Shown here: in pieces, positions 13,485-60,198 of the stretch | How positions within the stretch are numbered: the first letter of the stretch is position 1 | Layout of the letters: each line of letters begins with the position of its first letter | Source of the DNA: Apium graveolens | Lineage: Eukaryota > Streptophyta > Magnoliopsida > Apiales > Apiaceae | DNA length: 64,000 nt | Assembly: GCF_009905375.1 (NCBI RefSeq) | Contig: NC_133648.1 | Coordinates: 310,512,565 to 310,576,564 of the forward strand | Reading direction: 5' to 3' | Program-made: the position numbers and the translations under genes | The notes under the pieces: generated by a model | Database searches by the model: none | The model's input: the letters and a program-made list of their open reading frames with translations, nothing else | Told to the model about the DNA's origin: nothing

Positions 13485-13565
13485 CTGCACAAAAACACAT
13501 GAAATGCAATATATATAATTCATATGTTAAGAATTAATCCGCAGTGTGTGCGTGCGAACGTGGTG

Positions 13566-18100: not shown

Positions 18101-18399
18101 GAAAATTAATTATAATTCTAGTTGATTATATTATGAAATAGAATTTTACTTGGATTTAGCCGTTTATAGTTATATATTGACTGAAAGCAATATTTTTAGG
18201 AAAAATTAGACTTGATTTTCACTTATTGACAAATATAATAGATTATAAAATTTTACAAATATATTTTCTTTTGAAATTTTTCGTATTTATTAAAATTTTA
18301 TATATGATTTAATAAAAGATGGTGATCAACACAAGTTAGACCATGACCGAAGCTTCAGATGAAAGCATTGTTACAAGTCAGTAGTGTGTTTATATCACT

Positions 18400-19120: not shown

Positions 19121-20390
19121 TGTATGTCAAGAAGATGTGTCAAAGTGTTATTGGTGGCAGTTACAGCACCAAATTATTCAAAAAAGTGTACTTTACTAGT
19201 ACATATACATAACATTTATATTCTATGAAATATCTGTTGAAAATAGGCGTTAGACAACTAAAAGGTCTTGTTATAAAGTTCATCCAAGATGTTGTTAAAC
19301 AAGCTGTTTGATACGGTAATAATACTTAGGGTAGGGCAGTAGATTTAAACCAAGTTAATACCTTCCACGTGGATAATTTATTAATTTCATTTAGTTTATT
19401 ACTATATTTATATATAAATGGATAGTGTATATCTTATGTATTCCAAGATCAAGGACTTGGAGTTACTCGTTCAAGGTCATGTGTTTTAAATGGGATTAAG
19501 AGAAAGTTCAAGAGTGTCCTAGGAGAAATCCTATAAATATTATAAAATATAATCTCTTGATGATTTAAAACAAGGTTTTTGCAAATCAAATCCAACAACA
19601 TGCCTTCTTTCTTGCCTTATTATTAAAATAACAATATATTAAAATAATAATGGGGGGCAAATGAAAATGGTGAGAAGGAAGTGATGTTCGAAAAAAGGGG
19701 GAAACAAATATTTTATTGATAGAAATAGTATAGGGCATGTAAAATGGTGATTTATAAATAAGGGCCGATACAAGCCCTAATTTAGGCAACCATTAAACAA
19801 CTTCTTAATCGAGCAAGAAAGATTAACCTGTAGCCCTCAAAAGTGTTATACAACTCGAATCCAGCCAAGTTTTACACCAACCGAGCCTTATTTTACACAA
19901 ATTGAACCCTAAATTTGTAACTATATTTTCAATTAAATTTGAGTTTTTTCATCTTTTGATTCATGTGTGTGTGTATTTGACAGATTATTTGTGCACTTAT
20001 GTATCTTTGTGAATTTAGGTGTATAAATTGTTCGTTATTTATGTGATATGTGGTTTTGCCGATATATTTGTGCTAATATTCTCGCAAATCTTTTAGTAAT
20101 ATTGTTTTAAATGATTTATGAGGACTAATATATGAGGTAGTTGTGTAATTTCTGAAATACAGTTGAGTGCGCGACTGCAATTTTAGGTGTATATGAGTTT
20201 TACCTGATCTAAATAAATTCTCGAGAACAAATACATTTCGCTTCTTCATTTCGACTCTGTTATTTCTTTCCTTGACACAAAAAAAGAAGAAAGGATTATA
20301 TAATGTAAAATAATAAAAAGATCAGTAATTTTATTTGTAGGTATTTGTATACCGAGGTTCGTAAGAGAAAAAAGAAGAAAGGATTATATA

Positions 20391-21002
20391 ATGTATGCAT
20401 TTATTGATCCAGCGGCCATTTGTAAGCTCAATGATGATTTTCAAGCTTATATTTTCGCATATTCAAAATGTCTCATAATAATAAGTAAGTTCTAGCGTTT
20501 TCATAAGTACATATTATATTAGTAGAACATGTCTCTATATTTTTTAAATTCTAATTTTTATTTATTTAAAATTAAAACAATTATCATTGGATTTTGATAA
20601 TGATTTGGGAATCGGAAATCTTCATTCTCAACCCTTGGCTCATCTGACAAATTTTCCAAAATTGGTGCAGCATTAACGCGGTAATATTTATTAAACTATT
20701 TTTTATATATGTATGATGTCTATTTTATTTAGGATTTTTTAGATTTGACGCTACTGCATACTAATTCCAAGGCGGTTAGATCTTATAATGCTAAAAAGGG
20801 ATTGGTCAACAATAACCCCAAGGTTAAGAACCTTAGTTTAACTATTAATTTATGCACATTTCTATTTAGTAGGTTTTTGTGTAAATTCTTTCTATTTTGA
20901 GAATGATTGATTGTTAATTTTTTGTTGAATTAGGGATCCCCGAAACAACCGGGTGATGAAGTGCAATTCGAGGCTCTTCAATATGTCCAAGAGTTTGTTT
21001 AA
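20391..21002 (+). pseudogene. CACTA Ulp1-like remnant (unit 2)
   Basis: Copy of the unit 1 remnant, with the same replacement at the catalytic cysteine position. Confidence 0.6.
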
Positions 21003-21497
21003 TTTTCATCTGTGACAAGGGAACAATATTTGATCAGTACATTGTTGGATAGTTGGTCTTTTGGCTGGTTACTGTTTTGCAGGTACTTGTAGTCTGGTAC
21101 TTGTAGTCTTGATCTGGTACTTGTAGTCTTGATTTGCTTCTTTAGTCTTCTACTACGTATTGTTGGTTGGTGTTTGATATGGACACATTATGGATGGATT
21201 GTTGATATGTAAGAAATAATTTACGTAATTGGACTAGTTATGGAAGATGAAGTATGTAAGGTATTGTTGAAATGATAGTTAACGCGCTAATTATGCTTTT
21301 GAGATATATGCGACCATATTATGGATACTTTGCAATGTTTTAACTTTTGTTTTATGTTAGTGCTAGTTTTGGAGCTTGTTAGCTTTAAATTTTTTTGTAC
21401 TTTTGTATCTTTGGAAAGTTTTGGTTTATGATTGGTGAATTTCAGTTTTGGTATGGATCATTTGTTAATTTGGCTAGTTGAATATTTAAATATTACA

Positions 21498-21832
21498 CAT
21501 CACTTAAAATGTGCAAACCGATGTCTATGATAAGAAAAACAACAATTACAATGTGTTATTTTGTGCCGAAAACGGATGTAAGTAATAATCAATAACATCG
21601 GGTAAAAGAATTACAGATTGATGTTAAAGCTAAAAGACTACGGCTCTGAACCGATGTTTTTGTTAATTAAAAAAAATCCAATCTTTTTTACATCAGTCAT
21701 GCACCGATGTCTATTATAATCAATATAACATCGCTCATATTAGACAACTGTTGTAAAAGACCAATATATACATCACATTTTTTAGGAAACTGATGTCTAT
21801 ATAGCCATTTCATATCGGCTCTCTATGGGCAT
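21498..21832. repeat. CACTA subterminal repeats (unit 2)
   Basis: Copy of the ACCGATGT/ACATCAGT cluster of unit 1. Confidence 0.65.
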
Positions 21833-22016
21833 GACGTGAATTCTTATTATAAATATCATTTTTCTGAAATATACCATGTAACAGGTTATAATCACAGTGT
21901 GTATGATATGTTTAAATTGTTTATAATCTCTTAACTATGCACAATTAAAAAGCTATAAAAACCTTATTTAAGGTGAAATACATCAGTTTTTAATAAATAA
22001 ATAATGTGTGTAAGGT

Positions 22017-22415
22017 CCACACACTTATTGTTTCGTTCCTTAATGTCAAGAATAATATGGTGTTGTGACGAATAATGAACATTGATGGCGTCATAGATTT
22101 AGTTCTCTTCACCTCTATCAGCTCAGACGTGAGAACCTGTACATAAAAATTTCCAACTATTAGAAGTTACAAAGGGAAATAAAGAGGAGAACATGCATAT
22201 TATTATAAAGGAAATAAGTATATACATCAAGAATTCACAAATTTTTGTTCTCCTTCTTGATCATCACCTTTTCTCGGAATACTTCAATAAAATTCACTCT
22301 TTTGTGAAGTAGGGGATAATTGAAGAATTTAAGAACACATCCATCCTCTATGAAATGAAACTTAAGAGGGACATGTCTTATGGCTTTGGTATAAATTAAC
22401 ATCATTAATCCCCAG
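22017..22415 (-). pseudogene. WD40-protein gene fragments, third block (unit 2)
   Basis: Copy of the unit 1 block. One coding change: a T at 22262 gives Ile where unit 1 has Val (EKVMIKKEN). Internal stop retained. Confidence 0.65.
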
Positions 22416-23331
22416 CTGTATGTCAAGAAGATGTGTCAAAGTGTTATTGATGGCAGTTACCGCAACAAATTATTCAAAAAAGTGTATTGTATTAGTACAT
22501 ATACATAACATTTATATTCTAAGCAATATCTGTTGAAAATAGGTGTTAGACAACTATAAGGTGTTGTTATAAAGTTCATCCAAGTTATTGTTAAACAAGT
22601 TATTTGATAGGGTGTCAACACGTAGCGCAGTACATATAAACCAAGTTAATACCTTCGGTTTGGATGATATATTAATTTCATTGAGTTTATTACTATATTT
22701 ATACATAAATGGATGGTGTCTATGACTTGTGTATTCCAAGATCAAGGACTTGAAGTTATTGGTTCAAGGTCATATTTAAAGGGATTAAGAGAAAGTTCAA
22801 GAATGTCCTAGAAGATATCATATAAATATTACAAAATATAATGTCTTCGTGATTTAAGGCAAGATTTTTGCACATCAAATCCAACAACATGCCTTATTTT
22901 TTTCCTTACTATTAAAAACAATATATATAAATAATAATTGGGGAAAAATGAAATTGGTGAGGAGGAAGTAATGTTCAAAAAAAGAGAGAAACAAATATTT
23001 TATTGATAGAAATAGTAGAGGGCATGCAAAGTAATGCTTTATAAATAAGGCACATCATAAATGTCCTAGTATTTTAAGGCACCACTAGGACATTGTTGGA
23101 GAATGCCTCAAAATTTAGTTTAGGACAACAATTTAGACCACTCTTGGACTTGCTCTAACATCAGAGTCAATGTATTAGACACAAGCCATCTAAAATAAGT
23201 CAATTAGGCTCTACATATACTTATATAAATATATAAATAAAACTTCTATATAAATATATATACATATATAAATAATACTTATGTAAATATACTTATCTAA
23301 AAATTTGGTTCTAAAATATATGTGTATATGA

Positions 23332-23957
23332 TGTTAGAAAATTAGGATTTTAGAGCTTAATTTAATTATGTTCTTGATGTTAATCCTAAAATCTAATGAT
23401 TGGAAATTGTTCAATGATATTTGAACTTAAATTTTCATGTATGGTTTTAAGAATTTTCTTAATGAAATCCATATGAAATGAGAGTTGAAAGTAGCTTGGA
23501 AAAGCTTGGAAAAATTTGAGAATGTTTGTCCCACATTGAAATAAATAAAGGAGGTTGTGTGCTTTATATGGTATTACCCACATAAGTAGTATACAACTAC
23601 TAAGGTGTATGATGGTCCATTGTGTTGTTGTGTGCTTCACGCGCACACACACACGCGCGCGCCCCGCCCCGCCACGCCACGCCACACACCGGACCGGACC
23701 GGGTCGAAGGGCGATTTGGGCGAACGTCTCGGCGTCTCGCGTACGCGATGCGACCTGGGCGAGGATTTTATTTATTTGAGAATTAATTTTAATTCGAATT
23801 TATTTATTAGTGATTGGATTATTATAAATTGTTGGGCTTAGTCTAAATACCTTGAACCTGGACAAATAATATAATCTGATCTGTAACTGATGAATAAAAT
23901 CAGAACTTAAGTTCTGATATGATATCTCAGAACTTAACTTAAGTTCTGATATCAGAA
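23332..23957 (+). mobile_element. Truncated copia LTR (unit 2)
   Basis: First 626 bp of the copia LTR, ending at the same base as in unit 1 and joined to unit 3 by the same ATAATA filler. Confidence 0.93.
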
Positions 23958-24026
23958 ATAATAATATATATTTCAAATGTTTTTAAGAATAATAATAAGA
24001 CATTTTGATTCAAAAAAGATAATTAC

Positions 24027-24063
<37 letters not shown>

Positions 24064-25032
24064 TAGCGTGTATGCATAAATTTTAATATAAAATACAGTT
24101 CAAATTTGTTAATGAGAAATATATAAAATGTGTTGAAGAATACTTTTTTAATAACTTTTAAAATACATAAAAATTTAGTGCATTTCTATGTCTATTAAAT
24201 ATTTAAATTATGTTAATTTAAAAATCTATACGTGACACTAATTATGATTCAGATATAAACTATATAATATAAAACGAAAAAGAAAAAGAATGGTATTTAG
24301 GTAAATTTACACAAAATACTATTAGTTTCATCAACTTTTATAATTATGTAGGAACTTAACTTTGTGAGTTCAAATTACAAGTTTCAAGATAACTAAATAT
24401 ATGTGTTTGGTTTATTGATATGCAACTAGAGGTTAAGTTATTAATTTTGGTAAGTAACTAATATTTTTATATTAAATAGTTAGTTAACTTGTAATAATCA
24501 CTTTGGAGTTTGATAACACCCTTTTTGTGTTAACTACAAAAGTTATGTAAGTTGAAGTTAGTAGTTTAAAATACAGTAAACCTATCATACACCAAATCTA
24601 ACACTATAACTTATTTTAAATTCAAAGAACTTTAAGTTACTTTAGTAGAAAGAAAGGAGGCCTACAGCAAGTTAAATTTAAATTAAAAATACATATATAT
24701 TTTTACCAATCTAAATATAAAAATAGTAATGTAATTCAAAGTGCTTATTTCTCAAAAAGTCTATCTATATATTTCCTGCATTTGTACGAAAAATATTGAT
24801 AAACATTAGAATATTAATAAGTACACGTTGCTGCAAGGTCAAAACACTAAGTACCGGCCTAATTATATCATCTTATCATTGAGTTTTAGCAACAATTACA
24901 TTTTACCATGATGTATTTGTAATTAAGTAAATATAGTACACCAGTTGTACTTTTTCAGCTAATGAGAGCTCCTTTAGTTGCACATGTCTAGATTTGGCCT
25001 TGTAGTCTTTAGAGCAATGAGATCGAGCTGCT

Positions 25033-25286
25033 TTAGTTCGACCAAACATGGACCAAGCCACCCTGTTGACCAGGGTATATCTCACCGCGTTCTTCATCAT
25101 AAAAGACATAAGTGATGTCTTTTAGTGCACCTTCAACAGTGCTCTTGATTTTAGTACCTTTGATTGGCTTGCTTAAGTTGCACCTTCTACCACTGCACTT
25201 GCATTCTTTTATCACACTGGTGTTACGAGCATTGATCTTGGCAAGGCATTTACCGGTCAAGATACTGCTGATCTTTATTGACCCAG
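25033..25286 (-). pseudogene. WD40-protein gene fragment: last exon (unit 3)
   Basis: Copy of the unit 1 fragment; frame open to the natural-looking stop after HVWSN. Confidence 0.7.
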
Positions 25287-25367
25287 CTGCACAAAAACAC
25301 ATGAAATGCAATATATATAATTCATATGTTAAGAATTAATCCGCAGTGTGTGCGTGCGAACGTGGTG

Positions 25368-26578
25368 GACCATCATCTTCATCTTCATCAAGCACTACAG
25401 GAGTGTCAACAGTATTCTTGAACAAGCCCTGTTAGGAAACAATGCACCATATTTGAAAATGCACCATCAAGCAGAATTTATGAAAATGCAATAATTAAAA
25501 ATTGATAAGGAGAGTTAGATATTACCCTTAGCATTGAGTATCTTCCTCTTTTCCTGTTTCTGAAAGGAGGATTGGGAGGTGGTATTCTCTTCTTCTTCTT
25601 TTTAGGACTAATTTCAACCTCACTCTCACTGGAATCCATATTTGAACTATCTCCATTAAAACTCACATCATCTTTCTCTTCATCCCCCTCACAGTCATCT
25701 TTCCCCACTTCTTCATGTTTTCCTTTTGCTTGACACTCTTCAATCATACACTCAACTCTTTGTATTCTCTCATCAGTGTTAAATTGAGTGAAATCAAAGT
25801 CAAGCAAGTCACTGTAATTATCTTTGGCAGTGGTATAAACTTGAAGGCACTTAGTGTAAACTAACATATCCAACATGGTCCCAACATCATCATCGAAATC
25901 TAATGGATTTATAGTATCAACACATAACTCTCTCTCAGGAAGGGAAAACCACAGATCATATGAACCCTCTCCTATGCCTATTTCCTTACACATTGAGTCC
26001 AAATCAACTATTCTAAAATTTCTAAGAGAGCACATATCAAAAAATTTGCATTCCCCGTCAATGTACGCAGTAAAATCTTGACTAAACTCTCCCCCATATA
26101 ACAGTTTAATGGAGAAATTAAGTGAATAATCAGAAATAAAACCAATTTTGTATACATGTAAACAATAATATCACAACATAAACACATTGTCACAGTTAAA
26201 AAAGACCACGAATTGGACAAAAAAAACCCTAAAAACTCAGATGACAAAGTAACCCCACTTGTATAACTTATAACTGAAATTGCTAGATGACAAAGTATTT
26301 AGGGACCACCAATTGTTCAATAAACAATAGAAACCCTAAAAATCATGCATGCAAACATATTGGGTTTAATCGATACCATACAAACACTATAACCAGACTT
26401 GGAATAGAAATTAACCCCCATATTCTGGTATTTCAGCATCATCTTCCATTATTGGTGCTTCAATCACCGGGATTTCAACTCCTTTGTCCAACACTTGTAG
26501 CCAATAATCCTCTGGAACTTCATTCCAACTTATTGTTCTCAAGTTATCATCACTTACTACTCGCATACGGCCTCGCAT
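25368..26578 (-). pseudogene. PB1-like N-terminal part of a MULE-type gene (unit 3)
   Basis: Same blocks as unit 1. One difference lies at the splice acceptor of the PB1-like exon: the base next to the AG changes, so TTTCAG becomes TTTCTG on the minus strand near 26131. If the exon was ever spliced, this copy has lost that acceptor. Confidence 0.5.
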
Positions 26579-26905
26579 TTTCTCACAGATGTCTAGGGTT
26601 CACAAATTAGGGGTTTCAATTAGGGGTTCACAAATTAACGTAAATGAGAGAGTGGTTAGGTTTAATTGATATGGAGTTTGGTTTCCTGTTTTGGTTTATT
26701 TTACTCTGTTTTTTGTTTTTAATTAGTAATTGACTAAAATGCCCTCATTCCCGTTAACGTTAACGGCACAGTTGGATGGAAAAGCGCCCATGGCGTGCAA
26801 AAAGAAGCGAAAATAATTGTTCGGGGTGCAAACTGACAGAAAAAATAATATAGGCCCAAATCGAAAAAATGAAAATAATAGTAGGGTACAAACTGCCAAT
26901 TACTC
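25368..26905 (-). mobile_element. MULE-type insertion, partial (unit 3)
   Basis: Same insertion as in units 1 and 2. Confidence 0.5.
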
Positions 26906-29900
26906 TAATATTTAGTATCAGGTATTGAAAAGGATGTTTACCATTTTGTCCCAACCATAGGTCATCTAAATGAGCCTTGCAGAAAAATATAATAAGATCC
27001 TGGCTAGCTGTGACATAAATGTTCTTAAAGCTTCTACCAGGAGACCCATAAATTATATTTTAAGAAATATCTCTTGAAAATAGGTGTTAGACAACTGCAA
27101 GGTGTATTGTTATAAAGTTCATTACTATATTTTTATATAAATGAATGGTGTCTATGACTTGTGTACTGTCTACATAAAGATCAAGGACTTTGAGTAGCAC
27201 CTTCATAGTCATGCATTTTAAAGGGCTTGAGCAGCAGAGTCAATGTCTTAGACACAAGCCATCCAAAGCAAGTTAATTAGGCTCTACATATATACTCCAA
27301 GATAGACAAATAGAGAATGGCAGTGAAAAAAACCTAGCTAGCTAACCTCTTCTTCAATTTTTTTCTCCCATATACAAACATAAATATGACAATTCACATA
27401 ATCTGAATGATTTCAGTGAAAAAACCTAGATAATCTCTTTTTCTAGTTTTTTTCTCGAATATACAAACATAGACAAAAATATTTATAAAATTGAATTACT
27501 TTCGGATCACATCAGTTTTCGGTTATCGTATAATTACATCAAGTTCATATTATATTGAATTAGGTTAGGTTCAGGTTTAACTCGTAAACAAAATTATCAG
27601 AAAAAATTTCGATTAAGTTATTTTTATACAGAAATATCATCTTAAATACAAAATTTTCTGATGAAAAGATAATTTATTAACTTAAACATAGTTTAATTAA
27701 TATGAAATATAAGTTATGACTCTTTAAAATTATAACAACTAAACTAAAATTCAGTTTTATTCAATTTTTAAAATTCAGATATAGATACATATTCGATCTC
27801 GTACTTTGAGTCATATTCTGTTCAAACAATTTATTATTTGGTTTTGATCGGTTTCTGGTTACAATTACATATAATACTTCAAATTATTTTCTCTTAAATT
27901 TTCGGTTTAGATAATTTTTAGATTGTGGATCAGATTGAATTTTGGATCAGTATCGTATAATATATATCGAATAGTTTTATGAATTTTCATCTGGTTCTTC
28001 AAATCTGGACATAATTTGTTAAGCCTATTTATACACGCCTACATGATTTTCCATGTGGATTGAGGTGTGGGCTCCATTGAACTTTTCCTCCTAACAAATT
28101 TCTTGTTTATGTTTTATCCTCTAAGTAAATTCGCACTATCCTAGCACAACATGCAGGTGGAGCAAATTTCTCTTCAATAACTACGCTGTCTCTTGTATGA
28201 TGAGGCTATTTTATATTTTAGACACATATAAGTCACCTTTATTTCTTATTGGGTTATAATATTGCTTTTATTGATTCTACAAGTTGTTTGACCTTCATGA
28301 TTAATTTCGTTAATTAATTTTAATTGCATATTCTTGACTTGTTATTTAAATTTAATTTATTTCCATCTAGTTGTGTGTGACATTTTTTTTAGTTTTACCA
28401 AGGTATACCCTAGTATACTTGGATATAAGGGATATATATATTTGAAGTATGGAGATATTGAATATTAACCCATTTTTTAAAAAAATGAATGTGAAATGAT
28501 ATATATTTAGGGGTTAATTAGTGACACCCCTTAATTAAAATCAGAACTAATAACTTATTAAAAGTCACTAAAATTAAAATCAAACACCAAAAAATTAAAC
28601 ATAGATAATGACCATCCACAACCACTATTAATACTATCAATGATATCAATGTCGACCCCACCTACCCATCCGTCAACATGCCACCATCACCACCCCGTTC
28701 ACCACTATCAAACCACCATAACTACCACCCACTGCCACGAAAATTACCAAATTTAATTAAACTATACCACATCACAAGTTGTTGAATCACTAAAATAAAT
28801 GTCAATCATAAAAAATTTATCCAAATTACAAAATTTTATGTGCAAGTCACTAAATTTATCATACTATAATGATGAAACCACATCATAAAATAAAAATAAC
28901 CGTATATTTATGCCCTTAATGAATATAAGATATATATGGTGTATTTATAAAATAATGATGACTTTTTCGGAACTCTGGAAAAATGACGATTTTGAATGAC
29001 ATTTTGCGCAATTTGTGGTGTTGGGAGATGAATGTGAAGAAACAATATACGTAAATTTACACATATGTATTATATATATGATGAGATGAAATGAAGGTTA
29101 GAGGTGATGTAAAAATAAATATTTAAATTTGATGTTGATGTGCACTTGATACTAATTCTAGACATGACAAATTTGATTAGAATATATATATACCTAAGTT
29201 ACACAAAAATTTTATTTAAAAATCATTTAACATTAATGAAATAGTTTAAAATGATTATGTAGTAGAATCACATTTATCCAAAATTATTCTACAATGGTAT
29301 TAAAGTTAAAATCAATAGTTTTTTTTATCAGATTTTAAGTGATAAATATTTTATAATATTCTAATATAATTATCATTATACAGTACTATGAAATTTTATA
29401 AATTTTGAATAAATTTTTACATTTTGGGATTGCATTCTATAAGAAGGAAACATGGATAGAATTATATGGGTTCTCGATGAAATTCTGTAAAAGAGGGTTC
29501 TCTGACCTACACATAACAATAAATTATATTATAACTATTTAGGGCCTATCAATAAGTTACACATAAATAATTACTAAATTACCGAGAGTCGTAAAATTAT
29601 ATAATGTGATCACTAAATGAGTAAATGAGTGTGTTGTCATAAATATATATGTAAGTGCATTATTTAATATTAATCAATAATTATACCTATACCGATCTCG
29701 GTTGTTAGTTTGAGTTATAATATTGATTTTTATTTAATCACCAGCCCATCCAATGGAATTTGTTGTTAGTAACTAATTTCATAATTGAGGAATTAGGTAG
29801 TATTTATTGGTTAAATATGATTCTACTTATTGATTGTGCTTATTATGTTCTTGAGGTGGGTGGGAAACTCTTTTTAATATATTTAGGAGGGGTAATGAAT

Positions 29901-30201
29901 TGGAAAATTAATTATAATTCTAGTTGATTATATTATGAAATAGAATTTTACTTGGATTTAGCCGTTTATAGTTATATATTGACTGAAAGCAATATTTTTA
30001 GGAAAAATTAGACTTGATTTTCACTTATTGACAAATATAATAGATTATAAAATTTTACAAATATATTTTCTTTTGAAATTTTTCGTATTTATTAAAATTT
30101 TATATATGATTTAATAAAAGATGGTGATCAACACAAGTTAGACCATGACCGAAGCTTCAGATGAAAGCATTGTTACAAGTCAGTAGTGTGTTTATATCAC
30201 T

Positions 30202-30929
30202 AAGCTTCTTTAGTTCGACCAAACATGGACCAAGCTACAACGTTGAGCAGTGTATATCTCACGACTGCGTTCTTCATCATAAAAGATAGAAGTGATGTCT
30301 TTTAGTGCATCTTTAACAGTGCTCTTGATTTCAGTTTTTTATTGGCTTGCTTAAGCTAGACCTTCTACCGCTGCACTTGCATTCTTTTACAACACTGGTG
30401 TTACCAGAATTTATATGTTAAGAATCGGCAGTGTGTGCGAACGTGGTGTATTCATATTTAACATCAAGTATTTAAAAGGATTTTTATTACCAATTTGTGC
30501 CGACCATAGGTCAAACTAGCCATGCAGAAAAAATAATAAGATCCTGGAATGTGTGACATAAATGTTCTTAAAGTTTTTACCAGGAATAATCGGGTGTTGT
30601 GAAGAAAAATGAACATTGATGGTGTCATAGATCAGCTCAGACGTCAGAACCTGTACATTAAAATTTCCAACTATTACAAGTTACAAAGGGAAATAGAGAA
30701 GAGAACATGCATGTTATTATAAAGGAAATAAGTATATACATCAAGAATTAGCAGATTTTCGTTCTCCTGCTTGACCAGCACCTTTTCTTCGAACACTCCA
30801 ATAAAATTTACTCTTTTGTGAAGTAGGTATAATTGAAGGATTTAAGAACACATCCATCTTTTAGTGAATGAAACTTAAGAGGGGCATGTCTTCTGGCTCT
30901 GGTGTAAATCAACATCATTAATCCCCGGT
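30202..30929 (-). pseudogene. WD40-protein gene fragments, second block (unit 3)
   Basis: As in units 1 and 2 but seven bases longer near 30554-30575, where it keeps the GACATAAATGTTCTTAAAG version also present in the first block at about 3409. Confidence 0.6.
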
Positions 30930-32148
30930 TGTATGTCAAGAAGATGTGTCAAAGTGTTATTGGTGGCAGTTACAGCACCAAATTATTCAAAAAAGTGTAC
31001 TTTACTAGTACATATACATAACATTTATATTCTATGAAATATCTGTTGAAAATAGGCGTTAGACAACTAAAAGGTCTTGTTATAAAGTTCATCCAAGATG
31101 TTGTTAAACAAGCTGTTTGATACGGTGATAATACTTAGGGTAGGGCAGTAGATTTAAACCAAGTTAATACCTTCCACGTGGATAATTTATTAATTTCATT
31201 TAGTTTATTACTATATTTATATATAAATGGATAGTGTATATCTTATGTATTCCAAGATCAAGGACTTGGAGTTACTCGTTCAAGGTCATGTGTTTTAAAT
31301 GGGATTAAGAGAAAGTTCAAGAGTGTCCTAGGAGAAATCCTATAAATATTATAAAATATAATCTCTTGATGATTTAAAACAAGGTTTTTGCAAATCAAAT
31401 CCAACAACATGCCTTCTTTCTTGCCTTATTATTAAAATAACAATATATTAAAATAATAATGGGGGGCAAATGAAAATGGTGAGAAGGAAGTGATGTTCGA
31501 AAAAAGGGGGAAACAAATATTTTATTGATAGAAATAGTATAGGGCATGTAAAATGGTGATTTATAAATAAGGGCCGATACAAGCCCTAATTTAGGCAACC
31601 ATTAAACAACTTCTTAATCGAGCAAGAAAGATTAACCTGTAGCCCTCAAAAGTGTTATACAACTCGAATCCAGCCAAGTTTTACACCAACCGAGCCTTAT
31701 TTTACACAAATTGAACCCTAAATTTGTAACTATATTTTCAATTAAATTTGAGTTTTTTCATCTTTTGATTCATGTGTGTGTGTATTTGTTCGTTATTTAT
31801 GTGATATGTGGTTTTGCCGATATATTTGTGCTAATATTCTCGCAAATCTTTTAGTAATATTGTTTTAAATGATTTATGAGGACTAATTTATGAGGTAGTT
31901 GTGTAATTTCTGAAATACAGTTGAGTGCGCGACTGCAATTTTAGGTGTATATGAGTTTTACCTGATCTAAATAAATTCTCGAGAACAAATACATTTCGCT
32001 TCTTCATTTCGACTCTGTTATTTCTTTCCTTGACACAAAAAAAGAAGAAAGGATTATATAATGTAAAATAATAAAAAGATCAGTAATTTTATTTGTAGGT
32101 ATTTGTATACCGAGGTTCGTAAGAGAAAAAAGAAGAAAGGATTATATA

Positions 32149-32761
32149 ATGTATGCATTTATTGATCCAGCGGCCATTTGTAAGCTCAATGATGATTTTC
32201 AAGCTTATATTTTCGCATATTCAAAATGTCTCATAATAATAAGTAAGTTCTAGCGTTTTCATAAGTACATATTATATTAGTAGAACATGTCTCTATATTT
32301 TTTAAATTCTAATTTTTATTTATTTAAAATTAAAACAATTATCATTGGATTTTGATAATGATTTGGGAATCGGAAATCTTCATTCTCAACCCTTGGCTCA
32401 TCTGACAAATTTTCCAAAATTGGAGCAGCATTAACGCGGTAATATTTATTAAACTATTTTTTATATATGTATGATGTCTATTTTATTTAGGATTTTTTAG
32501 ATTTGACGCTACTGCATACTAATTCCAAGGCGGTTAGATCTTATAATGCTAAAAAGGGATTGGTCAACAATAACCCCAAGGTTAAGAACCTTAGTTTAAC
32601 TATTAATTTATGCACATTTCTATTTAGTAGGGTTTTTGTGTAAATTCTTTCTATTTTGAGAATGATTGATTGTTAATTTTTTGTTGAATTAGGGATCCCC
32701 GAAACAACCGGGTGATGAAGTGCAATTCGAGGCTCTTCAATATGTCCAAGAGTTTGTTTAA
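32149..32761 (+). pseudogene. CACTA Ulp1-like remnant (unit 3)
   Basis: Copy of the unit 1 remnant with one extra G near 32632 between exon pieces. The same catalytic-cysteine loss. Confidence 0.6.
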
Positions 32762-33256
32762 TTTTCATCTGTGACAAGGGAACAATATTTGATCAGTACA
32801 TTGTTGGATAGTTGGTCTTTTGGCTGGTTACTGTTTTGCAGGTACTTGTAGTCTGGTACTTGTAGTCTTGATCTGGTACTTGTAGTCTTGATTTGCTTCT
32901 TTAGTCTTCTACTACGTATTGTTGGTTGGTGTTTGATATGGACACATTATGGATGGATTGTTGATATGTAAGAAATAATTTACGTAATTGGACTAGTTAT
33001 GGAAGATGAAGTATGTAAGGTATTGTTGAAATGATAGTTAACGCGCTAATTATGCTTTTGAGATATATGCGACCATATTATGGATACTTTGCAATGTTTT
33101 AACTTTTGTTTTATGTTAGTGCTAGTTTTGGAGCTTGTTAGCTTTAAATTTTTTTGTACTTTTGTATCTTTGGAAAGTTTTGGTTTATGATTGGTGAATT
33201 TCAGTTTTGGTATGGATCATTTGTTAATTTGGCTAGTTGAATATTTAAATATTACA

Positions 33257-33592
33257 CATCACTTAAAATGTGCAAACCGATGTCTATGATAAGAAAAAAC
33301 AACAATTACAATGTGTTATTTTGTGCCGAAAACGGATGTAAGTAATAATCAATAACATCGGGTAAAAGAATTACAGATTGATGTTAAAGCTAAAAGACTA
33401 CGGCTCTGAACCGATGTTTTTGTTAATTAAAAAAAATCCAATCTTTTTTACATCAGTCATGCACCGATGTCTATTATAATCAATATAACATCGCTCATAT
33501 TAGACAACTGTTGTAAAAGACCAATATATACATCACATTTTTTAGGAAACTGATGTCTATATAGCCATTTCATATCGGCTCTCTATGGGCAT
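33257..33592. repeat. CACTA subterminal repeats (unit 3)
   Basis: Copy of the unit 1 cluster with one extra A near 33297. Confidence 0.65.
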
Positions 33593-33776
33593 GACGTGAA
33601 TTCTTATTATAAATATCATTTTTCTGAAATATACCATGTAACAGGTTATAATCACAGTGTGTATGATATGTTTAAATTGTTTATAATCTCTTAACTATGC
33701 ACAATTAAAAAGCTATAAAAACCTTATTTAAGGTGAAATACATCAGTTTTTAATAAATAAATAATGTGTGTAAGGT

Positions 33777-34175
33777 CCACACACTTATTGTTTCGTTCCT
33801 TAATGTCAGGAATAATATGGTGTTGTGACGAATAATGAACATTGATGGCGTCATAGATTTAGTTCTCTTCACCTCTATCAGCTCAGACGTGAGAACCTGT
33901 ACATAAAAATTTCCAGCTATTAGAAGTTACAAAGGGAAATAAAGAGGAGAACATGCATATTATTATAAAGGAAATAAGTATATACATCAAGAATTCATAA
34001 ATTTTTGTTCTCCTTCTTGACCATCACCTTTTCTCGGAATACTTCAATAAAATTCACTCTTTTGTGAAGTAGGGGATAATTGAAGAATTTAAGAACACAT
34101 CCATCCTCTATGAAATGAAACTTAAGAGGGACATGTCTTATGGCTTTGGTATAAATTAACATCATTAATCCCCAG
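33777..34175 (-). pseudogene. WD40-protein gene fragments, third block (unit 3)
   Basis: Copy of the unit 1 block with a few base changes outside the main coding motif (33916, 33997). Internal stop retained. Confidence 0.65.
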
Positions 34176-35086
34176 CTGTATGTCAAGAAGATGTGTCAAA
34201 GTGTTATTGATGGCAGTTACCGCAACAAATTATTCAAAAAAGTGTATTGTATTAGTACATATACATAACATTTATATTCTAAGCAATATCTGTTGAAAAT
34301 AGGTGTTAGACAACTATAAGGTGTTGTTATAAAGTTCATCCAAGTTATTGTTAAACAAGTTATTTGATAGGGTGTCAACACGTAGTGCAGTACATATAAA
34401 CCAAGTTAATACCTTCGGTTTGGACGATATATTAATTTCATTGAGTTTATTACTATATTTATACATAAATGGATGGTGTCTATGACTTGTGTATTCCAAG
34501 ATCAAGGACTTGAAGTTATTGGTTCAAGGTCATATTTAAAGGGATTAAGAGAAAGTTCAAGAATGTCCTAGAAGATATCATATAAATATTACAAAATATA
34601 ATGTCTTCGTGATTTAAGGCAAGATTTTTGCACATCAAATCCAACAACATGCCTTATTTTTTTCCTTACTATTAAAAACAATATATATAAATAATAATTG
34701 GGGAAAAATGAAATTGGTGAGGAGGAAGTAATGTTCAAAAAAAGAGAGAAACAAATATTTTATTGATAGAAATAGTAGAGGGCATGCAAAGTAATGCTTT
34801 ATAAATAAGGCACATCATAAATGTCCTAGTATTTTAAGGCACCACTAGGACATTGTTGGAGAATGCCTCAAAATTTAGTTTAGGACAACAATTTAGACCA
34901 CTCTTGGACTTGCTCTAACATCAGAGTCAATGTATTAGACACAAGCCATCTAAAATGAGTCAATTAGGCTCTACATATACTTATATAAATATATAAATAA
35001 AACTTCTATATAAATATATATACATATATAAATAATACTTATGTAAATATACTTATCTAAAAATTTGGTTCTAAAATATATGTGTA

Positions 35087-35091
35087 TATGA
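35087..35091 (+). repeat. Left target-site duplication of copia (TATGA)
   Basis: TATGA directly before the 5' LTR, matched by TATGA at 42393-42397 directly after the 3' LTR. Five bases is the usual length for copia elements. Confidence 0.95.
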
Positions 35092-35398
35092 TGTTAGAAA
35101 ATTAGGATTTTAGAGCTTAATTTAATTATGTTCTTGATGTTAATCCTAAAATCTAATGATTGGAAATTGTTCAATGATATTTGAACTTAAATTTTCATGT
35201 ATGGTTTTAAGAATTTTCTTAATGAAATCCATATGAAATGAGAGTTGAAAGTAGCTTGGAAAAGCTTGGAAAAATTTGAGAATGTTTGTCCCACATTGAA
35301 ATAAATAAAGGAGGTTGTGTGCTTTATATGGTATTACCCACATAAGTAGTATACAACTACTAAGGTGTATGATGGTCCATTGTGTTGTTGTGTGCTTC

Positions 35399-35525
35399 AC
35401 GCGCACACACACACGCGCGCGCCCCGCCCCGCCACGCCACGCCACACACCGGACCGGACCGGGTCGAAGGGCGATTTGGGCGAACGTCTCGGCGTCTCGC
35501 GTACGCGATGCGACCTGGGCGAGGA
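35399..35525 (+). other. CG-rich island with alternating CA/CG tract in the LTR
   Basis: CACACACACGCGCGCG followed by CCGCC/CACGC repeats and a TCTCGCGTACGCGATGCG stretch, set in otherwise AT-rich DNA. The same island is in the LTR pieces at 11837-11963 and 23639-23765. The 3' LTR copy (41388-41514) has several CG to TG/CA changes, as expected where cytosines are methylated. Alternating purine-pyrimidine runs can adopt Z-DNA; no function is shown. Confidence 0.7.
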
Positions 35526-35659
35526 TTTTATTTATTTGAGAATTAATTTTAATTCGAATTTATTTATTAGTGATTGGATTATTATAAATTGTTGGGCTTA
35601 GTCTAAATACCTTGAACCTGGACAAATAATATAATCTGATCTGTAACTGATGAATAAAA

Positions 35660-35766
35660 TCAGAACTTAAGTTCTGATATGATATCTCAGAACTTAACTT
35701 AAGTTCTGATATCAGAACTTAACTTAAGTTCTGATCTCAGATTAGAAATTAACTTAAGTTCTGATA
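35660..35766 (+). promoter_or_regulatory. Palindromic repeat cluster in the LTR U3
   Basis: Four copies of a roughly 24-bp element whose core is the perfect palindrome AGAACTTAAGTTCT (35662) or its longer form with AACTTAACTTAAGTT (35689, 35714, 35744), linked by GATATC-like spacers. It is about 150-250 bp upstream of the TATA box, a plausible place for enhancer repeats. The tandem-unit junction breaks at the start of the third copy. Equivalent cluster in the 3' LTR at about 41649-41757. Confidence 0.6.
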
Positions 35767-35908
35767 ATAATGTGGGTTTTAATGGGTGTTAATGTGAAAA
35801 GCTGTTACAAGTAATTTAAATTCAAAATCTGATCAGTTTTGATTTTTTTTTAATGAAGCAGTTTAGTTCAGACATTAAGTGTCTGGACAATTTCATTTTT
35901 TCCTCTCC

Positions 35909-35916
35909 TATAAATA
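35909..35916 (+). promoter_or_regulatory. TATA box of the copia promoter
   Basis: TATAAATA with a following AGAGG. Transcription would start near 35938-35945 (ACACAACATTC), placing U3 at about 850 bp and leaving about 460 bp of R plus U5. Conserved in the 3' LTR at 41899. Confidence 0.75.
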
Positions 35917-36129
35917 GAGGTTAAAGTGAATGTATTATATACACAACATTCTCTTCTCTTCTCTTCAACCTCTCTGCATTTCTCTCCCAAAAGTCCCGAA
36001 GTGCTGATATTTTTCGACGACTGAGGTGCTGGTCGAAGTGGAGCTTTTGTTGCTGCTGTTAACATAAACTCCGAGCTGTTTTATCCTGGTGGAGATATTG
36101 TGCGTATCCCAAACGCAGCAGGTAGGGGC

Positions 36130-36145
36130 AATATTCTCTTCAAGA
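36130..36145 (+). other. LTR leader segment complementary to the primer site
   Basis: AATATTCTCTTCAAGA, perfectly complementary to 36405-36420. It lies about 190-205 bases into the predicted transcript, just after a CAGGTAGGGG stretch. The 3' LTR has the identical 16 bases at 42119-42134. A second, shorter complementary stretch (TTCTCTTCAA, 10 bases) lies near the predicted transcript start at 35959-35968, within a CT-rich run. Confidence 0.85.
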
Positions 36146-36404
36146 GCAGCCAGGACTTCGAGCAAGGCCTGGTGACTCAGCTGTGATCATTTTTCTTGGT
36201 ATTTTGTATCTGTGAACATTTATTTCAGTCACTGTTAAAAGCTATGGTTTCAAGCACATCTTTCTTTCTCTCTTCGTTATTTCAGTTACTGATTTTGTTT
36301 ACCTGCATGTTTTGTTTTGTTAACTGTGGTCTTGGCCTAAACTTGCTAAATTCTTTATACACTTGCTTCTATGTTGCTATATTTGTTAGTGAGATTTACA
36401 ACAT

Positions 36405-36420
36405 TCTTGAAGAGAATATT
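36405..36420 (+). promoter_or_regulatory. Candidate self-primer binding site
   Basis: Reverse transcription of LTR elements normally starts on a tRNA annealed just inside the 5' LTR, and that site usually begins TGG. Here, one base after the LTR end (36403), the sequence is TCTTGAAGAGAATATT. It does not begin with TGG and does not match the plant initiator-Met tRNA site TGGTATCAGAGC. It is the exact complement of 36130-36145, and the primer's 3' end would point into U5, the right polarity. Known precedent: the yeast Tf1 element primes with the 5' end of its own RNA. Use of this mechanism here is inference. Confidence 0.55.
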
Positions 36421-36441
36421 AGTTATATAGAATTTAGCATA

Positions 36442-37122
36442 ATGGTTAACGAAAGTGAGGTTATCGTTGGTGGTGGTAGCAGTTCGGGTGCAACTGCTGG
36501 GGCCATTGATTGGACCACCTATAGTTTCCCACAGGCTGTTGAACTAACCGGTTTACCGGAGAAATTCAACGGTGGCATTGGCTTTTCTCGCTTGCAGAAA
36601 AGGATGAAGTTGTGGTTGACTATAAAAGGTCTGTGGCCGGTTGTGGAATATGAGAAACCAGAAGTGGATCAAGAGAAGGCTGACACAGTTAAGGCTTTTG
36701 CGAAGTGGGCTGAGAAGGATGGAGTGGCTAGGGCAGCAATTCTGGCGGCACTAACAAACACTTTGTTTGATGTCTATTCTTTTGATGCCTACTCCGCAAA
36801 ACTCTTATGGGAGAAGTTGGACCAGACACATAATACTGACTCACAAGGTCTAGAAAAGTATTATGTGGCAAGGTTCCTCGAGTTCAAACTGGTGGACAAT
36901 AAGTCCATGACTGAGCAGGTGCATGAGTTCGAGATGATAGTGCATGCTTTGAAGGAGTCTGGAATGAATCTCCCGGAAAAGTTCAAGGTGATGAGTGTGA
37001 TTGAAAAACTCCCGAAGTCTTGGGAAGAGTTCTCTCTCTCCCTGAAAAGACAGAAAGGAGAGATCACCTGGACCAACCTTATGCTGGACATCTCGGTGCA
37101 AGAACAACACAAGTCCAAATAG
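36442..37122 (+). pseudogene. copia gag, capsid part, ending at an in-frame stop
   Basis: Gag starts at ATG 36442 (MVNESEVIVGGG), 38 bases after the LTR. The order is typical of copia Gag: ELTGLPEKFNG, LQKRMKLWLTIKGLW, LTNTLFDVYS, LWEKLDQTH, then the UBN2-type segment FLEFKLVDNKSMTEQVHEF and MSVIEKLPKSWEEF. TAG at 37120 interrupts the frame, which continues unchanged on the other side, so it is a point mutation or, less likely, a read-through stop. An upstream ATG at 36196 inside the LTR is in the same frame with no stop between. I prefer 36442 because the earlier segment resembles no Gag. Confidence 0.85.
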
Positions 37123-40100
37123 GGACATGTGATGCCAACTGAACACTGTACCTCGAAGGTAAACATAGCAACTATAGGACAGAAGAGGAAGGCTTTTGCT
37201 AAGAAAGCTAATAGTAATAAACCTAAGAGTGACAAGGACAAGGCCAAGAAACCCAAGGCAAACAAACCATGCTGGTCTTGTGGGCAGGTTGGGCACTGGA
37301 GTAAGGACTACCCTACGAAGAAAGCGAAGAAAACCGAGGTAGCACAAGCAAATGTTGTGCTTGGAACCACAAGTGGGCCTGTAGTGAACATGGTTGTTGG
37401 TGAGGCTACGGCTTCTGAAACCGACGTTGACCGGTATGTATCCTACAACCCTGTGATATTTTCTACCTATCTGTCAAATGAATGGTTGATAGATACTGGA
37501 GCTAATGTACATATTTGTGCTGATATTAGTTTATTTGTATCTTATCAACAGAGTCATAGCCTGACTGTGAAGATGGGGAATGCTAGTGTTGCTCAAGTAC
37601 ATGGAGTTAGAAACGTGGATCTGAAGTTCCCTCCAGGATGTATTCTATCTCTGACGAGAGTGCATCATGTTCCCAACATGCGTAGAAATATAATAAGTGG
37701 AAGCTGTTTAGTTTCTAGTGGTTTTGAAATTTCGTTCAAGTGTAATAAAGTAGTTCTTATTCACACTCGTACATTCTTTGGCAAGGGTTACTTGTCAAAT
37801 GGTTTATTTGTTATTAATGCGGATCCCGTTTTGGGAAATTTGAATAATAATGTTATTCCTACTGTTAACTGTATTGAATCCTCAAATATATGGCATGCTA
37901 GACTAGGTTATTTAAACTTTGGTGCTCTTAAGACCATGATGAACTTAGAGTTGATTCCAAAATATACCATAGAAAAGAATTCTAAATGTCAAGTATGTGT
38001 GTCTGCTAAACAGATAAGGAAACCTTTTCATAACGTTGTTAGGGATTCAGACTTGTTAGATTTAGTACACAATGATATTTGTGAATTTGGTGGTGTATTG
38101 ACCAAGGACCAGTTTAGATACTTCATTACTTTTATAGATGATAGTAGTAGATACTGTTATGTTTATTTACTTAGACATAAGGATGAAGCACTTAGTAATT
38201 CATTATATATAAAACTGAAGTAGAAAAACAAACTAGTAAGCTACTTAAAAGATTGAGATCTGATAGAGGTGGTGAGTATACGAGTAATGCTTTTAATGAA
38301 TTTTGTGCAAACAATGGTATAGTTCATGAAGTTACTCCACCATACACACCTGAGTCTAATGGGGTTGCTGAGCGAAAGAACAGAACATTTAAAGATATGA
38401 TTAATAGTATGCTTATTAACTCTGGGTTGCCTAAATACATGTGGGGAGAGGCTCTAAATACGGCTTGCCATATTTTGAATAGAGTCCCTCTGAAACACAT
38501 GGATAAAACACCCTTGGAGTTATGGAAAGGCAGGATGACTAGTCTTAAGTATCTTCGTGTGTGGGGGTGCCTTGCTAAGGTGCTTGTTCCTGAACACAAG
38601 AGAAAGAAACTAGGTCCAAAGACTATTGACTGTATCTTTCTGGGCTATCTTGAAACCACTACAGCTATGAGATTTTTAGTGTTAAAATCTGACATAGATG
38701 GTATAGTGGTAAATACGATAGTTGAATTTTGAGATGCGACATTATTTGAGGATATTTACCCTATGAAAACTGGAATACCTGAAATGATTTCTGATGAAGA
38801 TCCTACTCACACATCAAGTTCTATTCCTGATCATGTGGAAAAGATGACAAATGTGGGGGCGGAACCTAGTAGTAGCTCTAGTCCTAAGGAAATAGAGGAA
38901 CCAAGGAGAAGTAAGCGTGCAAAGGTAGTCAAGGATTTTGGAGGTGATTTCATCACTTACAATATCGAGGACGAACCTTTAACTTTCCGGCAAGCAATGG
39001 ATTCTTCTGAGTCAAGGCACTGGAAGGGCGCTATCAAGAGTGAAATTGACTCTATTATTTCTAATGGAACATGGGAGTTGGTTGATCTCCCTCCTGGGTG
39101 TTCTACTATTGGGTGTAAATGGGTTTTTAAAAGGAAGTTGAACCCTGACGACTCAATAGATAAGTACAAAGCTAGATTGGTAGCTAAGGGTTTTAAGGAA
39201 AAGGAAGGAATTGATTATTTTGATACATACTCTCCGGTTGCAAGAATGGTAACAATCCAAATGGTTATAGCATTGACTTCAGTCCATGGTCTTATCATCC
39301 ATCAGATGGATGTAAAGACGGCTTTCCTTCATGGTGAACTTGAAGAAGAGATTTATATGGATCAGCCTGATGGATTTGTTACATCAGGCAATGAAAGGAA
39401 AGTATGTAAGTTGATCAAGTCCATCTATGGCTTGAAACAAGCTCCCAGAGATTGGCATAAAAAGTTTGATGAAACTATATTGCCTTTTAGTTATAAGATT
39501 AATGAAAGTGATAAGTGTGTCTACACTAAAGTTAAATGTAATGAGTGTGTTATTTTATGCCTATATGTGGATGACATTTTATTGTTTGGAACCAATATTG
39601 AGATTATTAACGAGACTAAAGAATTCTTGAAAAGGCATTTTGAAATGAAGGATATGGGTGAGGCAAGTGTGATTCTTGGAATCAAACTGATTCAGTCCAC
39701 TGAAGGAATAACCTTGACTCAATCTCATTATATAGAGAAATCTATACTTGAGAAATATGGTTATTCACAGTGTAGAATCGCTAGTACACCTTATGATTCG
39801 AAAGTTTCCCTTGTCAAGTATACTTCAGGAGTGCCTGTGTCTCAGTTAAAGTAATCTCAGATTATTGGGAGCTTGCAGTATCTTGCTAACTGTACTAGAC
39901 CAGATATTTCATATTCTGTGTCTAAATTGGCTAGATATACAAGTTGTCCAAACAGAACTCATCGGGATGCTCTTGATAGAGTACTTAGATATCTAAAAGG
40001 CACAATGTACCTTAGTTCATACTACAGGAGATTTCCTGGTATGCTTGAAGGGTACAGTGATGCAAGTTGGATAGCTAAGAAGTCTGGTTCCAATGGAGTG

Positions 40101-40553
40101 ACTGGATACGTGTTCACCTTGGCTGGTGGAGCAATATCCTGGAAGTCAAGCAGACAGACTATTGTTACTCGGTCTACTCTTGAGGCTGAGTTGTGTGCAC
40201 TTGACGCCACAGGGACGGAGGCTGAATGGTTACACGGACTTATGTCTGCAATACCTGTAGTAAGCAGACCGCTTCCTGTTATTGCTATTCACTGTGATAG
40301 TCGAACAACTATCGACAAGATTAGCAGTAAAAAGCATAATGCTAAAACTAAGAGACACATCCAAGTTAGACTCAAGTCTATAAGGGGTTTAGTGACTGAT
40401 AGGATCATAGCTATAGAGTTCATAGGAACTCAGAATAATGTAGCTAATCCTCTTACTAAAGGACTGGAACCTGCAGTGGTCCTTAAGTCAAGGTTGGGGA
40501 TGGGACTGTCCACCCATCATAATTCATCAACAGTGGGAACCCAATACACATGA
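37123..40553 (+). pseudogene. copia nucleocapsid and pol: protease, integrase, RT, RNase H (broken)
   Basis: Order seen: a zinc knuckle CWSCGQVGHWSKDYP at about 37270 whose last cysteine is replaced by Tyr; protease WLIDTGANVHIC (about 37480); an integrase zinc region WHARLGYLNF (about 37891) in which the usual second His is Tyr, followed by CQVC; integrase core NDICEF, FIDDSSR and NGVAERKNRT (D, D, E); reverse transcriptase from about 38990 with LYVDDILLFG (about 39560); RNase H YSDASWI, EAELCAL and HCDSRTTI; and the pol stop at 40551. Breaks: a one-base frameshift near 38197 in integrase, an in-frame TGA at 38730 and an in-frame TAA at 39852. All of pol is on one strand after gag. It is recognisable throughout but not functional. 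Confidence 0.9.
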
Positions 40554-41067
40554 GAGGAGATCCCTCGAAGTGTATTCAATGGGTAATAACAAGCTGTAAG
40601 GATGAGTTGGTAGTACCTTTGCTACATAGATGATACTATAGTATCTGAGTCTATCCCCTGTAAACCTAGAAGGTACTGACACTTCCAGAAAAGCAAGAGT
40701 GGTAAAACTCTGAATGGGATCAAGTCATTTGATGAGATAGAGGCAGTATATCTCTGGAGATGCCCAGCTAAGCGAATGTAATTGTGTGGTCGCAATTAGA
40801 GGATAGGGTTAATCCTTGAAGCATTCGATGAACAGGATCGAGACATGACCATTAATGTCTCAAAGCCGTAGATTGGCACCATAACCTTTGACTTGTCGTC
40901 GTCTATGGAATATGGTTATACTAAACGGATTAAGATTCAAGGTGAAACATTCCATCTGAGTCCGATAGCCATTGAAGTAGATGAATTATGAGGGTTCAAA
41001 CCCGGAAGGGTACCGACTCTGAAAAACAAGTCATGATGGGAAATTGATCGCATTTCTGTATGGATTT
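40554..41067 (+). other. copia 3' internal non-coding region
   Basis: About 510 bp between the pol stop and the purine tract, of mixed base composition rather than AT-rich. I see no open frame or third gene. Regions like this occur in several plant copia lineages. Confidence 0.6.
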
Positions 41068-41076
41068 GTGGGGGAT
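41068..41076 (+). promoter_or_regulatory. Polypurine tract of copia
   Basis: GTGGGGGAT directly before the 3' LTR TGTTAG, the usual place and composition of the plus-strand primer. Confidence 0.85.
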
Positions 41077-42392
41077 TGTTAGAAAATTAGGATTTTAGAG
41101 CTTAATTTAATTATGTTCTTGATGTTAATCCTAAAATCTAATGATTGGAAATTGTTCAATGATATTTGAACTTAAATTTTCATGTATGGTTTTAAGAATT
41201 TTCTTAATGAAATCCATATGAAATGAGAGTTGAAAGTAGCTTGGAAAAGCTTGGAAAAATTTGAGAATGTTTGTCCCACATTGAAATAAATAAAGGAGGT
41301 TGTGTGCTTTATATGGTATTACCCACATGAGTAGTATACAACTACTAAGGTGTGTGATGGTCCATTATGTTGTTGTGTGCTTCACACGCACACACACACG
41401 CGCGCCCCGCCCCGCCATGCCACGCCACGCACCGGACTGTACCGGGTCGGGTCGAAGGGCGATTTGGGCGAATGTCTCGGTGTCTCGCGTACGCGAGGCG
41501 ACCTGGGCGAGGATTTTATTTATTTGAGAATTAATTTTAATTCGAATTTATTTATCAGTGATTGGATTATTATAAATTGTTGGGCTTAGTCTAAATACCT
41601 TGAACCTGGACAAATAATATAATCTGATCTGTAACTGATGAATAAAATCAGAACTTAAGTTCTGATATAATATCTCAGAACTTAACTTAAGTTCTGATAT
41701 CAGAACTTAACTTAAGTTCTGATATCAAATCAGAAATTAACTTAAGTTCTGATAATAATGTGGGTTTTAATGGGTGTTAATGTGAAAAGGTGTTACAAGT
41801 AATTTAAATTCAAAATCTGATCAGTTTTGATTTTTTTATTAATGAAGCAGTTTAATTCATACATTAAGTGTGTGGACAGTTTCATTTTTTCCTCTCCTAT
41901 AAATAGAGGTTAAAGTGAATGTATTATATACACAACATTTTCTTCTCTTCTCTTCAACCTCTCTGCATTTCTCTCCCAAAAGTCCTGAAGTGCTGATATT
42001 TTCCGGCGACTGAGGTGCTGGTCGAAGTGGAGCTTTTGTTGCTGCTGTTAACATAAACTCTGAGCTGTTTTATCCTGGTGGAGATATTGTGCACATCCCA
42101 AACACAGCAGGTAGGGGCAATATTCTCTTCAAGAGCAGCCAGGACTTCGAGCAAGGCCTGGTGACTCAGCTGTGATCATTTTTCTTGGCATTTTGTATCT
42201 GTGAACCTTTATTTCATTCACTGTTAAAAGCTATGGTTTCGGGTACATCTTTATTTCTCTCTTCGTTATTTCAGTTACTGATTTTGTTTACCTGCATGTT
42301 TTGTTTTGTTAATTGTGGTCTTGGCCTAAACTTGCTAAATTCTTTATACACTTGCTTCTATGTTGCTATATTTGTTAGTGAGATTTACAACA
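41077..42392 (+). repeat. 3' LTR of copia
   Basis: 1316 bp, TGTTAG to ACAACA, collinear with the 5' LTR over its whole length. It carries the TATA box (41899), the palindromic cluster and the 16-base segment complementary to the primer site. It differs from the 5' LTR mostly by transitions, many in the CG-rich island. Confidence 0.97.
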
Positions 42393-42397
42393 TATGA
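42393..42397 (+). repeat. Right target-site duplication of copia (TATGA)
   Basis: Matches 35087-35091. Confidence 0.95.
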
Positions 42398-60150: not shown

Positions 60151-60198
60151 GTTTCATTGCGGCTAGTGCTCATTGCGGCTAGTGCAATGAAACATTGG
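60151..60198. repeat. Boundary hairpin with a partial internal duplication
   Basis: The loop-side CATTGCGGCTAGTGC is present twice here, giving one left arm, two loops and one right arm. At 58597 the reverse has happened: the loop is reduced to GCGGC. Both point to instability at the hairpin. Confidence 0.85.

Follow-up and report, generated by a model that had tools for sequence, protein, structure and literature searches.

Paired change between a proposed primer-binding site and the LTR leader in a Ty1/copia retrotransposon of Apium graveolens

The window, a stretch of 64,000 nucleotides of Apium graveolens DNA analysed as a whole, contains a complete Ty1/copia insertion at 35092-42392 that is flanked on each side by the target duplication TATGA. 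The 5' LTR has the ends TG...CA, and the alignment of the 5' and 3' LTRs shows 96.6% identity. The features of the locus are as follows.

35087-35091, no strand: target-site duplication TATGA, 5' copy (from the flanking sequence)
35092-36403, + strand: 5' LTR, 1312 bp (from the LTR alignment and LTR ends)
35908-35920, + strand: TATA-like box CTATAAATAGAGG, ~221 bases upstream of the arm
36122-36286, + strand: intron-like segment with donor GTAGGG, pyrimidine tract and acceptor TTATTTCAG
36130-36145, + strand: arm, the proposed self-primer (36132-36145 paired in nearly all sequences)
36144-36178, + strand: hairpin immediately 3' of the arm, conserved with two-sided base-pair changes
36405-36420, + strand: proposed primer-binding site complementary to the arm (from the sequence match and pair counts)
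36442-37122, + strand: gag (Retrotran_gag_2), first reading frame, ATG at 36442
37129-38732, + strand: zinc knuckle, Pol_BBD, GAG-pre-integrase and integrase frames, interrupted in the window copy
38763-39854, + strand: reverse transcriptase, RVT_2 (Ty1/copia type)
41068-41076, + strand: purine-rich tract preceding the 3' LTR (from the sequence), which we take to be the polypurine tract
41077-42392, + strand: 3' LTR (from the LTR alignment and LTR ends)
42119-42134, + strand: copy of the arm within the 3' LTR
42393-42397, no strand: target-site duplication TATGA, 3' copy (from the flanking sequence)

The copia-type gag and the position of the integrase before the reverse transcriptase (RVT_2) assign the element to Ty1/copia. 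The coding frame of the window copy is interrupted, and relatives with open frames of ~1,470 codons were found. No relative of the element was found in viral contigs, and a search of the 64-kb window for tRNA genes and Rfam genes returned none. The U3 regions of both LTRs (35650-35770 and 41640-41760) contain runs of imperfect palindromes of the TTAAGTTCTGATATCAGAACTTAA type. Upstream, a unit of ~11.8 kb is repeated three times in tandem (354-12155, 12158-23957 and 23960-35717) at ~99.7-99.9% identity, and the first two units each end in bases 1-626 of the element's LTR, broken within its palindromic part. Positions 56100-64000 are occupied by a tandem array of a ~520-base repeat with copies ~91-94% alike.

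The site at 36405-36420 is separated from the LTR end by a single base (36404) and is the exact reverse complement of the arm at 36130-36145. The preliminary description of this DNA had pointed out this 16-base complementarity and its retention in both LTRs, and both observations hold, with the 3' LTR copy of the arm at 42119-42134. The site sequence occurs once in the window, and perfect 16-mer inverted pairs no more than 600 bases apart number three in the 64 kb, the arm and site among them. For comparison, 5,000 pseudo-junctions were drawn elsewhere in the window; after removal of the 635 falling in or next to the element, 4,365 remained, five of which reached a match of at least 16 bases. 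Therefore, the arm-site match by itself is only moderately strong; it is conservation that decides. A match of at least 10 bases was found at 285 of the 4,365 pseudo-junctions, a caution on the published 10-base criterion discussed below. A second, 10-base match that had been reported near the predicted RNA start (35959-35968) is present, but it is kept in only two of eight aligned cross-family rows and was rejected as the true primer.

The pairing was followed in an alignment of 42 rows, 41 of them distinct, which comprises the window and relatives found in the same genome (L006-L008, L017, L019-L036, L041-L058 and L060). Near copies of the window (L001-L005), L018 and L059, whose site was recovered only with a relaxed pattern, were excluded. 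L006-L008 had been obtained by a DNA query containing the arms. The relatives fetched by protein similarity number 40, namely 20 of the 112 reverse-transcriptase places and 20 related-protein places; a recognisable arm and site is present in 39 of them, and the remaining one (L018) lacks the 5' part.

Among the 656 cells of the 41 distinct sequences, which count related sequences, 635 are paired and 21 unpaired. Four pairs have changed on both sides, in 20 cells that represent about four independent events shared by clades; none of the 656 cells shows a standard pair with a change on just one side. The arms thus change together in relatives, which is what the preliminary description had proposed to check. 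All two-sided changes are A-U to U-A swaps or the reverse and lie at 36132-36135 and 36415-36418; the ten core pairs show no two-sided change within the families of the window's element. The failures consist of the two outer pairs, in eight sequences each, and five core cells. Because several families carry one extra base in the site near its 3' end, the common duplex is one of 14 pairs. A first set of 27 sequences had given 98.6% pairing and three pairs with two-sided changes. Shuffled controls matched the five pairing measures in 0-1 of 500 cases. When the partner was slid by 1-3 columns, 42-52% of the cells were paired; the +2 shift also gave four pairs changed on both sides, but in 10 cells and with 49% pairing. 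The tetranucleotide GGGC immediately precedes the arm in 41 of the 42 rows.

A more distant family retains the pairing with different letters. In L084, an arm and a site unrelated to those of the window form 14 perfect pairs at the corresponding place. The LTR end of this element was placed from its CAACA (5' side alone); the pairing begins two bases past it and is the sole match of at least 13 bases in the stretch scanned. L085, a relative of L084, retains 11 pairs, and GGGC adjoins the arm in both. No clear donor adjoins the arm of L084. No other arm-site pair beside an LTR end was found among L086-L093, save in the inverted copy L092, and the query P0058 yielded no place recognised as an additional distant family. 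Together, these comparisons show that the LTR leader has kept its pairing with the stretch of 14-16 bases next to the inner end of the 5' LTR, both through paired changes in related families and through replacement of the whole pair of arms in the distant one.

Plus-strand synthesis of LTR elements copies the primer into its binding site, as in retroviral replication. Were the arm the primer, any mutation in it would be transferred straight to the site, so that one-sided changes would be absent. Their absence, as judged from four variable positions, is consistent with such copying in each replication cycle; had compensation been slow, intermediates with G-U pairs should be seen.

The inverted copy L092 lies, with L094 and L095, on contig C10 (144338300-144340500) and is an L084-family LTR copy in which the part following the arm is inverted, with the junction at the arm and site. 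The LTR sequence following the arm continues through the site into an inverted stretch of LTR whose end is the arm. Seen from the opposite strand, the arm is joined directly to a copy of U5 in minus orientation, which breaks off six bases away from the arm, an arrangement that resembles a primed product. A target duplication of 4-6 bases was sought around this copy and none was found. It is possibly a fossil of self-priming or of DNA snap-back. Because the inverted part extends into U3, snap-back of plus-strand DNA explains it equally well, and the copy is not used here as evidence for self-priming.

A tRNA 3' end as primer is not indicated, as the site does not begin with TGG, a feature that had already been noticed. 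Its longest match to the sampled tRNAs, internal stretches included, is 6-7 bases, which is the level of shuffled primers; sampling covered 28 of 62 places, which gave 27 distinct sequences, some organelle-like, for 10 amino-acid types.

Apart from the exceptions L024 and L047, families A-F have a TATA-like box 203-232 bases upstream of the arm; in family G the boxes are weaker and stand 219-249 bases upstream. If the box at 35908-35920 is used, the arm is situated at about +190 in the RNA, as the preliminary description had estimated. These boxes would put the arm well inside the RNA, so that a simple copy of the Tf1 scheme would not fit, and the doubt expressed earlier on this point was justified. 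When folding is modelled for the 508-base leader that begins at the predicted start, the structure of lowest energy lacks the arm-site helix (probability 0.0006), which can be imposed at a cost of 5.7 kcal/mol. For RNAs that begin at 36100 or 36122, the complete helix is predicted (probability 0.91 and 0.996, respectively). The modelled fold of the whole leader thus speaks against spontaneous arm-site pairing in cis. The stability of the leader is no greater than that of shuffles (z -0.40), and a general leader fold was rejected as an explanation. The hairpin at 36144-36178 is kept among relatives, with pairs changed on both sides. Two further stretches are conserved in the leader. The motif TGTTTTATCCTGG and the bases that follow it (36079-36099) are conserved in eight cross-family rows; this stretch pairs with the arm in the whole-leader fold but does not change jointly with it. 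Downstream of the arm, GACTCAGCTGTG (36174-36185) is nearly invariant across otherwise differing families.

The arm occupies nucleotides 9-24 of a 165-base segment with intron-like ends (36122-36286). GTRRG lies 8-12 bases before the arm in 43 of the 43 sequences scanned, and YAG follows a pyrimidine-rich stretch 108-156 bases past the arm start in all 43. Both the donor-like and the acceptor-like signal persist, even though what separates them has diverged from one family to another; for family F, the chosen acceptor is tied with another candidate. The two signals predict a spliced junction, which was afterwards searched for. Two places, ~5.5 kb apart, matched the predicted junction with one mismatch and eight with three mismatches, and a reversed junction used as a control matched at none. 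At six of the eight three-mismatch places, no site of the window's element family was found in the matched orientation. The junction corresponding to family C-E was found at no place.

Both one-mismatch places belong to a single recent element, L069, of which they are the two LTRs; it has the target duplication GGATC, LTRs that differ at 5 of 900 positions, and an intact site. Both of its LTRs lack precisely this segment, within the ambiguity left by a CAG repeat. Of the 40 matches with the best scores, 38 break at the junction and two, the LTRs of L069 itself, run across it; 37 second pieces are among the matches, lying ~160 bases further on in the pairs checked. The aligned siblings of L069 carry the same segment, except L075, which diverges inside it. 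The donor context, with no more than one mismatch allowed, was counted at 1,371 places, against two junctions of the spliced type. Splice signals and a segment-less copy in genomic DNA, that of the single element L069, thus point to an intron in the leader, and L069 looks like a product of reverse-transcribed spliced RNA. With an intact site but no arm in its LTRs, L069 would have been primed either by a second RNA molecule or by the 3' end of the RNA being copied.

Based on these sequence comparisons, we propose that minus-strand DNA is primed by the element's own LTR-encoded RNA and that splicing removes the primer from the mRNA, a reading to which we assign a probability of roughly 0.8. The leader RNA would be cut after 36145, and its new 3' end would anneal to 36405-36420 and be extended into U5 by reverse transcriptase. 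Should the template be cut at the arm, a poly(A) site beyond 42134 would be needed for first-strand transfer. Judging from the one genomic product, the arm would lie near the 5' end of a 165-base leader intron. Unspliced RNA, carrying both primer and site, would then act as the genome, and spliced RNA, whose leader is devoid of the primer, would act as mRNA and allow no priming from its leader. That spliced RNA was apparently copied nonetheless (L069) may be explained by a primer from another RNA or from the arm copy at the 3' end. The preliminary description had arrived at self-priming as a candidate mechanism from the window alone; the relatives support it, the intron-like segment and a published prediction for the TAR lineage had escaped it, and priming itself is what we infer.

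A stricter version would have the only primer in the LTR-leader intron, so that splicing converts a replicable genome into a non-replicable mRNA; the primer RNA, perhaps the excised intron, would also act in trans. We hold this version tentatively, at somewhat less than even odds. If the only primer is intronic, splicing would directly, and testably, separate the translated from the replicated RNA.

Several other explanations were weighed against priming by the element's own leader RNA. Chance complementarity in an AT-rich LTR could account for the window copy, given the pseudo-junction matches of at least 10 and at least 16 bases (285 and 5 of 4,365), but the conservation and paired change across families and the independent arm pair of L084 disfavour it so strongly that its probability is almost negligible. 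It is also improbable that the duplex serves, as a structural or regulatory fold of the RNA, in packaging, dimer formation or translation control and that the true primer is a host tRNA fragment fitting the conserved core. The core of ten bases hardly varies in the window's families, whole-leader folding does not favour the helix, and the tRNA sample was a partial one (27 sequences, 10 amino-acid types, 28 of 62 places), all of which would suit such a combination. Against it, the site lies directly inside the LTR, the place required of a primer site, in the families examined, the sampled tRNAs match no better than shuffles, the site has no TGG, and L084 keeps the pairing with a completely different core. 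Transcription from ~36130, with the arm as the RNA 5' end in true Tf1 fashion, would explain why the pairing stops at 36130 or 36131 beside a CA dinucleotide and why the sequence immediately upstream is conserved, and RNAs from 36100 or 36122 do fold into the helix. The TATA-like boxes, at 203-232 bases upstream in A-F (two exceptions) and 219-249 in G, together with the lack of a visible TATA box ~30 bases ahead of the window element's arm, make such a start distinctly unlikely.

Two alternatives concern the intron-like segment. The excised intron, or a piece of it, might prime spliced genomic RNA in trans; the arm at intron nucleotides 9-24 and L069, which shows that segment-less RNA can be copied, would agree with this. 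A spliced template as the rule, however, predicts that segment-less LTRs are common, and two junctions against 1,371 donor-context places leave the idea with a low probability. The loss of the segment in L069 could also be a deletion between its two CAG repeats, spread to both LTRs by reverse transcription. The repeat at both ends permits deletion by microhomology, and L069 is the single such element found. We consider this unlikely, as the junction had been predicted from splice signals before the search and was matched with one mismatch, and the splice-like signals are kept in 43 sequences despite the divergence between them.

Self-priming in plant Ty1/copia elements has been predicted before. 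In the available part of PMC6317226, self-priming is predicted for 12% of the elements analysed, on the criterion of a match of at least 10 bases to the element's own 5' LTR that starts 0-5 bases inside the LTR; within Ty1/copia, the TAR lineage is predicted to be self-primed, and an earlier proposal is cited for Houba and Osr-1. The idea of self-priming therefore has precedents, and the novelty here lies in the comparative evidence for it. With the paired changes, plant Ty1/copia self-priming moves from a similarity-based prediction to one with evolutionary support. As described in that part of PMC6317226, TAR elements resemble the window element in being Ty1/copia with a 5-base target duplication and in having a site complementary to their own 5' LTR in place of a tRNA-type site. 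The window element has 16 such bases starting one base inside the LTR, and the likeness concerns this primer-site criterion rather than a phylogenetic placement. Unlike the present analysis, the same part of the TAR report contains no covariation test, intron or position of the self-primer in the RNA. Titles and abstracts searched for a self-primer inside an LTR intron, mostly in non-subscription literature and partly with narrow phrases, gave none on the subject; PMC2206039 and PMC4659654, as far as their available parts show, deal with PCR and repeats and not with self-primed elements.

Tf1 requires complementarity to the first nucleotides of its RNA, according to the available part of PMC5445492. 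The Tf1/sushi elements are like the window element in having an own-leader primer, as proposed here, and a site just inside the 5' LTR; Tf1 is a Ty3/gypsy element in which the RNA 5' end pairs, whereas the window element is Ty1/copia and its arm lies ~190 bases past the predicted start. The primer pairing of Tf1 spans 11 bases, and in self-priming of the Tf1 type the element's RNase H cuts the RNA at the primer end. BARE1 of barley is primed by initiator-Met tRNA. How LTR elements separate translated from replicated RNA is called an open question in the available part of PMC3735527, which describes for BARE1 a splice junction two bases past the gag domain that yields a Gag-only RNA. BARE1, as presented there, is likewise a Ty1/copia element of plants, and its RNA pools are separated by splicing, a scheme similar to the one proposed here; its junction lies just past the gag domain, whereas the intron-like segment of the window element lies in the LTR leader and contains the proposed primer.
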